DNA of 14,066 nucleotides from Nitrospirota bacterium (GTDB taxonomy: Bacteria > Nitrospirota > Nitrospiria > Nitrospirales > UBA8639): NCBI GenBank assembly GCA_029879555.1, contig JAOUQB010000027.1, forward strand, positions 1-14,066, read 5' to 3'. The translations under genes were made by a program, and so were the position numbers. A model generated the notes under the pieces. The model was not told the DNA's origin. It was given only the letters and a program-made list of their open reading frames with translations, and did not search any database. Shown piece by piece: positions 9,800-14,066 of this stretch (its first letter is position 1; every line of letters starts with the position of its first letter).

Positions 9800-9857
9800 G
9801 GCCTCTCTTTATAAACGATTGTTTTTTGACAAATAAGTGATTTGAGGAGGAAAGAGG

Positions 9858-11063
9858 ATGGCGAAGGCGAAATTTGAGCGGAAGAAGCCGCATTTGAATG
9901 TGGGCACGATTGGGCACGTGGACCATGGGAAAACGACCTTGACTTCGGCTCTCACGAAGGTCATGGGGGACCTGGGTCAGGCGGCCTATGTGCCGTATGA
10001 CGACGTGGCCAAGGCGAGTGAAAGTCAGGGCCGACGGGATCCGACCAAGATTCTCACCATAGCCATCTCGCATGTCGAATATGAAACCGGCAATCGTCAT
10101 TATGCGCATGTGGACTGTCCGGGGCATGCCGACTATGTCAAGAACATGATCACCGGGGCCGCGCAAATGGACGGGGCCATCTTGGTCGTCAGTGCCGCTG
10201 ATGGGCCCATGCCGCAAACGCGGGAGCACATTCTCTTGGCTCGCCAAGTGGGCGTACCGTACATCGTCGTCTTCTTGAATAAAGCCGACAAAGTGGAAGA
10301 TAAGGAATTGTTGGAGCTGGTGGAGCTCGAAGTGCGGGAGCTCCTCACGAAATATGGGTTCCCAGGAGATGATGTGCCGGTCGTCATTGGGTCGGCCATT
10401 AAGGCCATCGAGGGGGACCAAAGTGAAGTCGGAGTGCCCTCGATCGTCAAGTTGTTAGACGCCGTCGATAGCTATATTCCGACGCCAGAGCGAGCCATTG
10501 ATAAACCCTTCCTGATGCCCATTGAAGACGTCTTCACTATTAGTGGTCGAGGGACTGTCGTCACGGGCCGAGTGGAGCGTGGGATCGTCAAGGTGGGGGA
10601 TGAAATTGAGATCGTGGGGCTTAAGCCGACGCAAGTGACCATTGTGACTGGGGTTGAAATGTTTCGCAAGGTGTTGGATGAAGGGCAAGCGGGAGATAAT
10701 ATCGGCGCCTTATTGCGCGGCACGAAGAAGGAAGATGTGGAGCGGGGCATGGTGTTAGCCAAGCCGAAATCAATCACCCCGCATACCAAATTTAAGGCCG
10801 AAGTGTATGTACTCACGAAGGAAGAAGGGGGTCGCCATACGCCGTTCTTTAATGGCTATCGGCCACAGTTCTACTTCCGGACAACGGACGTGACGGGCAT
10901 TGTGCAGTTGAATGAAGGCGTGGAGATGGTGATGCCGGGCGATAACGTGTCGTTTGCCGGGGAGTTGATTGCGCCAATTGCGATGGAGCAAGGGGTGCGG
11001 TTTGCGGTGCGTGAAGGGGGTCGGACGGTGGGCGCCGGGGTGGTCACGGAAATTGTGGAATAA
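9858..11063 (+). CDS. tuf: Elongation factor Tu with a non-canonical switch I
   Basis: EF-Tu delivers aminoacyl-tRNA to the ribosome as a GTP complex. The ATG follows AGGAGG (9845-9850) by seven bases, the strongest Shine-Dalgarno in the window. The product has 401 residues (E. coli 394). P-loop GHVDHGKT (19-26), DCPGHAD (86-92, catalytic His90), NKAD (141-144) and SAIK (179-182) are intact, and domains 2 and 3 look normal to the C-terminus. The effector loop is odd: the RGITI normally found before SHVEY reads KILTI (64-68), and the loop is five residues longer than in E. coli. The threonine that contacts magnesium is kept as Thr67. Synonymous sites are visibly richer in G and C than in fusA or secE. 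It lies between fusA (the tufA position) and rpmG-tRNA-secE (the tufB position). Confidence 0.96.
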
Positions 11064-13390: not shown

Positions 13391-13418
13391 ACTTTTAATC
13401 TGAGTAGGTGGGTTGGGT

Positions 13419-14066
13419 ATGAAAAAAACTGACAAAACAGAAGTGGTGTCTGTCATGCACGAACGGTTTGCTCGTGCGCGAATAGCCATTGTGTCTGAAT
13501 GTGCGGGCATGCCGGTCAATCAAGTAAATGATTTGCGGAAAAAGCTTCGTCAAGCGCAGGCGCATATGCATGTGGTGAAGAATACGTTGGCTGTTCGGGC
13601 CATCGGTAATACCCCGCTCGTTCCCTTGCAGCCATTTTTTAAAGGGCAGTCGGTGTTGGTCATTGGCTATGATGATCCTGTGCTGCCAACGAAAGTGATT
13701 CGGGATTTCATTCGAGCGGAGAAGTGTGAAGACAAATTGCAGATCAGGGGCGCGGTGCTTGATGGGGAGGAGCTGGATCCTGTTCGCTTGTCTTCGGTGG
13801 CAGATTTGCCATCAAAGGCGGAGTTGCTTTCCATGTTGTTGTCGGCCTTCCAAGGCCCCATTCGGGGGTTTGTGGGGGTCTTGGGTCAGGTGGTGAGAAG
13901 CATTGTTGCCGTATTAGCAGCTATACAAGAAAACAAAACGCAGAAAGGAGAGGGAGAAATGAGTGCTACAGAAACAAAAATGTCGAAGGAAGATTTCATT
14001 AAGGCCATAGAGGGCTTGAGTGTGTTGGAATTATCTGATTTGGTGAAAGGCTTGGAGGAGCGATTT
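13419..14066 (+). CDS. rplJ: 50S ribosomal protein L10 read in frame into L7/L12 (no stop codon; open at the window end)
   Basis: L10 anchors the L7/L12 dimers to the ribosome. AGGTGGG (13406-13412) precedes the ATG. The first 180 residues (13419-13958) form a full-length L10: an N-terminal rRNA-binding domain with HVVKNTLAVRA at 51-61, the segment PFFKGQSVLVIG, and a C-terminal helical tail (QVVRSIVAVLAAIQENK) of the kind that binds L12. Most L10 proteins end just after such a tail. Here no stop codon occurs; the frame passes through TQKGEGE directly into Met181, the L7/L12 start, and stays open for 36 more codons to the window end. Either this is a real L10-L12 fusion, or a lost base created a false one. 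The L10 identity is certain; the fusion needs read support. Confidence 0.9.
   Translation, partial: MKKTDKTEVVSVMHERFARARIAIVSECAGMPVNQVNDLRKKLRQAQAHMHVVKNTLAVRAIGNTPLVPLQPFFKGQSVLVIGYDDPVLPTKVIRDFIRAEKCEDKLQIRGAVLDGEELDPVRLSSVADLPSKAELLSMLLSAFQGPIRGFVGVLGQVVRSIVAVLAAIQENKTQKGEGEMSATETKMSKEDFIKAIEGLSVLELSDLVKGLEERF
13944..13950 (+). promoter_or_regulatory. Internal Shine-Dalgarno for rplL inside the rplJ frame
   Basis: AAAGGAG lies eight bases upstream of the ATG at 13959, within the continuous rplJ-rplL reading frame. It is a near-ideal ribosome-binding site and is the reason to expect a separately initiated L7/L12 even if L10 is fused to it. Confidence 0.75.
13959..14066 (+). CDS. rplL: 50S ribosomal protein L7/L12, N-terminal part (cut by window end)
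   Basis: L7/L12 is the multi-copy stalk protein that recruits EF-Tu, EF-G and other translational GTPases. Only 36 residues are visible. The segment EDFIKAIEGLSVLELSDLV matches the N-terminal dimerization and L10-binding domain, ending at GLEERF just before the usual GV and the alanine-rich hinge. ATG 13959 is preferred because of the AAAGGAG upstream; a second ATG at 13980 would give a shorter N-terminus and has no comparable site. It shares its reading frame with rplJ and is not separated from it by a stop codon. The globular GTPase-binding domain lies outside the window. Confidence 0.92.
   Translation, partial: MSATETKMSKEDFIKAIEGLSVLELSDLVKGLEERF

Follow-up and report, generated by a model that had tools for sequence, protein, structure and literature searches.

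An open L10-L12 reading frame with a conserved internal L12 start across an order of Nitrospirota

The L10-L12 frame at the end of the contig

The window analysed here (the whole stretch of 14,066 nt) ends within rplL, the gene for L7/L12. From the ATG at 13419 to the window end at 14066, 216 codons are translated with zero stops, giving a complete L10 sequence followed by the start of L12, and the rplL ATG at 13959 is in frame with the L10 ORF. An earlier note on this DNA had described this stop-free frame, the in-frame rplL start and linker letters reading TQKGEGE, and all three points were borne out by translation. That note was silent on the fact that the TQKGEGE codons hold the Shine-Dalgarno sequence AAAGGAG of rplL (13944-13950); the first codons of the linker double as the rplL ribosome-binding site. 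The features of the locus are as follows.

13419..14066, + strand: L10-L12 fused ORF, stop-free, with the L10 and L12 N-terminal domains; truncated where the contig stops
13419..13709, + strand: L10 domain PF00466 (Pfam, residues 1-97)
13815..13943, + strand: long C-terminal L10 helix, predicted to bind L12 dimers (residues 133-175 in the AlphaFold model of the closest relative found, with shared numbering; alignment to the tail ends of the 1zav and 4v63 L10 chains)
13944..13985, + strand: linker from the L10 helix to the first L12 helix (residues 176-189; the model is disordered at 175-191)
13944..13950, + strand: internal Shine-Dalgarno sequence AAAGGAG of rplL, 8 nt upstream of the ATG
13959..13961, + strand: internal rplL start codon, ATG in 152 of 152 junctions read
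13959..14066, + strand: N-terminal part of rplL (L7/L12), PF16320; gene truncated where the contig stops

The L12 dimerisation domain PF16320 corresponds to residues 190-216 of the window protein in the Pfam analysis. Its closest relative found, 90% identical, is a complete fusion of 311 aa. The NCBIfam L10 equivalog NF000955 (cut-off 85) scores above its cut-off in both the window protein (151.2 bits) and this relative (163.7 bits). The L12 equivalog TIGR00855 (NCBIfam, cut-off 84.4) reaches 158 bits in the complete relative and 20.7 bits, under the cut-off, in the window protein, of which only 36 L12 residues lie in the window. One L10 was found in the genome of this bacterium. The L12 C-terminal domain PF00542 had no match anywhere in its assembly, because contig and window are identical and rplL is interrupted at their last base, 14066.

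When the window is aligned with the single-contig genomes G018 and G009, it falls into two blocks whose order is exchanged, and it lacks a segment of ~2 kb between rplL and rpoB. The contig begins within rpoB and runs out within rplL, genes that adjoin each other in the relatives. Judged by this gene order, the contig resembles a loop that the assembly may have closed across a pair of tuf copies (window 9800-11063 and both ends). Such a loop leaves the L10-L12 finding untouched. Many of the relatives' contigs at this locus are likewise about 15 kb long. The gap between rplA and rplJ is 28 nt (window 13391-13418). In an Rfam search of the window only tRNA reached its gathering score, and thus no L10 leader was detected.

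Conservation of the open junction across the order

We searched 59 genomes, including that of this bacterium, and 395 genomes of the phylum; in total, 167 of these belong to the order of this bacterium (families f1-f4), which we infer to be the Nitrospirales. A match to the locus is present in 157 of the 167. One match (G045) stops short of the junction, at a contig end. The other 156 cross it, and in all of them, single-contig genomes included, L10 and L12 form one frame without a stop. This rules out an assembly slip, and the open L10-L12 junction is confirmed as genuine at the level of DNA. The earlier note had pointed to related genomes as the place to look for a stop or a frame difference and had named a base lost or gained near the end of rplJ as the alternative to a fusion. 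No such difference appeared in any of the 156 junctions, which speaks against that alternative.

The locus match is missing in ten of the 167 genomes (G248, G160, G315, G330, G355, G379, G381, G392, G001 and G054). L1 is missing from all ten too, and both positive controls returned L1. The L1-L10 block is absent from these assemblies, which are therefore uninformative on the fusion. G248 is a single contig rated 99% complete, yet lacks L1 and L10. Collapse of the tuf repeat may drop the whole L1-L10 block from assemblies of this kind.

The DNA of the junction region was read for 153 of the 157 genomes; G004, G005, G006 and G034 were counted from the search table only. Complete ORFs starting at the L10 ATG were obtained for 149 of the 153 and encode proteins of 308-314 aa, and the other four (G000, the genome of this bacterium, with G377, G040 and G045) are cut by contig ends. 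Nine full-length ORFs in which a crude motif test had overlooked L10 show the L10 tail by alignment.

The linker varies between groups in length, always in frame, and in its letters (KGEGE, KGEGD, KGTGE and KEDS). An average linker offers ~2.6 single substitutions that would create a stop, with the Shine-Dalgarno codons excluded. Over a total tree length of 55.5 (third positions) or 20.2 (all sites) for 150 taxa, roughly 48 or 18 stop gains, respectively, would be expected under neutrality, and none was observed in 152 junctions; the estimate is crude, as all base changes were taken as equally frequent, and its gap to the observed value is large.

Among the other Nitrospirota, a locus match was found in 222 of 252 genomes. 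All 57 outgroup genomes with a single match were checked: four matches cover L12 only, and 53 span both genes, with at least one stop inside each of these 53 spans. The remaining 165 genomes have two or more separate matches. In ten outgroup junctions that we read closely, L10 ends at a stop and rplL begins at its own start beyond a spacer. About a quarter of the outgroups (53/218) have both genes in one frame, versus every judgeable genome of the order.

The internal start of rplL

The L12 start is ATG in 152 of the 152 junctions read, and a GGA core lies 4-16 nt upstream of it in each. Each junction thus has what characterizes a dual-start gene, a further start in the same frame preceded by a ribosome-binding site. 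The best upstream motif is AAAGGAG in 101 junctions, GGAG in 39, AAGGAGG in 6, AGGAG in 5 and GGA in 1. Codon usage is also distinctive at this spot. The Lys codon at position -5 is AAA in 145 of 146 cases, and elsewhere in the same ORFs AAG makes up 71.5%. Where the Gly codon is GGG, GAG follows it in 35 of 36 linkers, G026 being the exception. In the family f2 junctions that were read, the codons specify Pro-Lys-Glu, and AAGGAG is retained in a shifted register. The Shine-Dalgarno sequence is conserved more strongly at the nucleotide than at the amino-acid level. Since related sequences are not independent, these conservation figures are counts and not probabilities.

We also compared predicted pairing energies with the 16S rRNA tail, for which a sequence was assumed. 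The median is -8.7 at the L12 start, -7.9 at the L10 start and -3.3 at other ATGs (n=1452), 2.6% of which reach -8.7. Pairing is stronger at the L12 start than at the L10 start in 132 of 152 junctions and not stronger in 20. Medians were used as the L10 mean is distorted by a placeholder value in a case that yielded no pairing, which was scored as weaker for L10.

L12 copy number, L10 tail and structure

Exactly one L12 domain (PF00542, over the cut-off) is present in each of the 22 order genomes searched. G040 and G045 carry L10 and the L12 match on different contigs, each of them cut. Four extra PF00542 matches, in G046, G049 and G051, were considered as possible separate rplL genes and set aside, all being partial and under the cut-off. 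There is thus no separate L12 gene over the cut-off in these 22 genomes, and the conserved internal start could supply separate L12.

The L10 tail aligns almost to the end of the L10 chain in both 1zav and 4v63, which we take to be those of Thermotoga maritima and Thermus thermophilus, respectively. According to PMC6021402, the stalks of these two species carry six L12 and those of Bacillus subtilis and Escherichia coli four, and the length of the tail sets the L12 number (PMC4592705). In length, the L10 tail studied here matches tails that bind three L12 dimers, and it would offer several dimer sites. The fusion alone would provide one L12 per L10, although the tail length suits three dimers. 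With one L12 domain per genome and a tail of this length, either the internal start is the source of free L12 or the majority of the tail sites stay empty.

An AlphaFold model of the closest relative found (59 sequences, mean pLDDT 66, pTM 0.42) has the L10 helix up to residue 175 (pLDDT about 70), a disordered segment, and L12 helices from residue 190. It recovers the domains and not their arrangement, and the attached L12 is not placed on L10. In the L12 part, K256, K261, R264, K272 and K275 (query numbering), presumably the residues that bind the factors, are invariant in all 59 aligned fusions.

A nested gene with two predicted products, and its alternatives

As the open frame coexists with a conserved L12 start and Shine-Dalgarno sequence, both the fusion and free L12 are most likely made. 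The fusion predicted in the earlier note stands at the DNA level, but the prediction overlooked this kept start and its ribosome-binding site, which point to free L12 too. We consider it quite likely that the locus is one nested gene with two products, namely an L10-L12 fusion and free L12 that is made from the internal start and fills the remaining sites of the tail. The ribosomes of this bacterium and of its order thus probably carry one L12 built onto L10.

As no stop separates L10 from L12, initiation at the ATG at 13419 would yield the fusion. Other ribosomes would initiate at the internal Shine-Dalgarno sequence and the ATG at 13959, for which the sequence evidence is strong, and make ordinary free L12. 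No separate L10 was seen in the genome of this bacterium, and hence one L12 would be covalently attached in every 50S subunit, with free L12 on the long L10 tail. For a stalk of three dimers, the simplest stoichiometry would be one fusion with five free L12. Judged by length, the 14-residue linker looks long enough for the N-terminal domain of the attached L12 to occupy the last site of its own L10. The fusion would not be cut. The anchor would then hold a factor-recruiting L12 domain permanently, even after free L12 departs, which may be its benefit. As to its origin, the rplJ stop was likely lost in the ancestor of the order, and the spacer, including the Shine-Dalgarno sequence, would have become the linker.

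Four other explanations were weighed against this nested gene. The fusion might be a polyprotein that a protease cuts at the Lys-rich linker to release ordinary mature L10 and L12. A short, charged and predicted disordered linker would suit cleavage, but its letters vary across the order, and free L12 has a source besides cleavage because the internal start is kept; we regard processing as unlikely. It is more doubtful still that only the fusion is made, the internal start being unused and each ribosome having a single attached L12. The uninterrupted frame and the single L12 domain per genome agree with this proposal. However, it is at odds with the conserved ATG and Shine-Dalgarno sequence, with a codon bias confined to that spot, and with the retention of both the L12 dimerisation domain and the long L10 tail.

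A programmed frameshift near the end of rplJ might release ordinary L10 and leave the open frame mostly unread. The other frames do close near the junction in about half of the sequences, with the first stop of the +2 (= -1) frame at -22 in 77 of 152 and that of the +1 frame at +37 in 73 of 152. However, neither stop is common to the whole order, no in-frame X XXY YYZ heptamer occurs in the last 60 nt in 146 of 152, and the zero frame is stop-free in 152 of 152. Neither a slippery site nor an other-frame stop shared across the order was found in the 152 junctions, and we consider frameshifting highly improbable. Finally, an error of sequencing or assembly in our contig has a negligible chance of explaining the frame, for although this contig appears to be a misassembled loop from a genome in 605 contigs, the junction is open in every order genome that crosses it, single-contig ones included, and the suspected false join is at tuf and not at the L10-L12 junction.

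Comparison with known systems

The fused ORF shares with the bacterial L10-(L12)n stalk (uL10/bL12) the L10 domain, a long predicted L12-binding tail, and the L12 dimerisation and C-terminal domains. In contrast, the stalks described in PMC6021402 and PMC4592705 are made of separate chains, whereas here there is one chain, known from DNA. In a canonical stalk L10 and L12 are joined only non-covalently; the lack of a stop in 156 of 156 order genomes departs from this at the DNA level. The coupled rplJ-rplL pair of E. coli has the same gene order and an L12 with its own start, and it yields a fivefold excess of L12 (PMC10666635). The E. coli genes are separated by a stop and a 66-nt spacer, whereas in the Nitrospirales the ribosomes that translate L10 would pass through the L12 start. 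The dual-start genes infB and cheA have one frame with two starts, giving a long and a short protein (PMC11005335). Here, however, the short product would be a complete multi-copy ribosomal protein, and the long one its own anchor fused to it.

Across the order as a whole, we think it likely that each L10 has a covalent built-in L12, that the remaining L12 is supplied free from the nested start, and that the make-up of the stalk results from read-through and internal initiation competing within a single ORF. This would make the fusion an independently reached bacterial counterpart of the archaeal and eukaryotic anchor P0. P0 (uL10), which works with P1/P2, itself bears a factor-recruiting segment that resembles that of the arms. 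In P0 the tail does not consist of an L12 domain and has no relation to one; any likeness to the L10-L12 fusion would be convergent.

L10 and L12 belong to the core of the bacterial ribosome, where descriptions have them linked non-covalently. In the order to which Nitrospira belongs, one arm seems to have become permanent. This offers a natural experiment on why L12 is present in several copies per ribosome and whether every copy must come off. It is also a clean test case for obtaining two products in the needed ratio from one frame.

Other L10-L12 fusions

We found no description of a natural L10-L12 fusion in the open-access literature searched. Among the matches listed, the sources that name these proteins give them as plain L10 or L7/L12. 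The unit used for these bacteria in proteomics, in structural models and in marker-gene alignments may therefore be the wrong one.

In a protein search based on the E. coli sequences, 13 of the best 120 of 5406 matches have both L10 and L12 domains, and all 13 are single-member clusters. When read, these 13 sequences mostly have internal deletions or scrambled tails, such as misassembly can give. P0167 and P0175, single-member clusters of the proteobacterial type, have a full L10, a translated spacer and a full L12, and may be rare natural read-throughs, as judged from their sequences.

A search based on the T. maritima sequences (best 120 of 6749) returned further fusions of the Nitrospirales type among the matches listed. 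Five other proteins (P0269, P0274, P0283, P0309 and P0319) are L10-L12 fusions whose linker is clearly longer, with a total length of 322-323 aa, and the contig of P0274 is 163,711 bases long. Beyond the best 120 of 5406 and the best 120 of 6749 matches listed, there may be a fixed L10-L12 fusion in another phylum.
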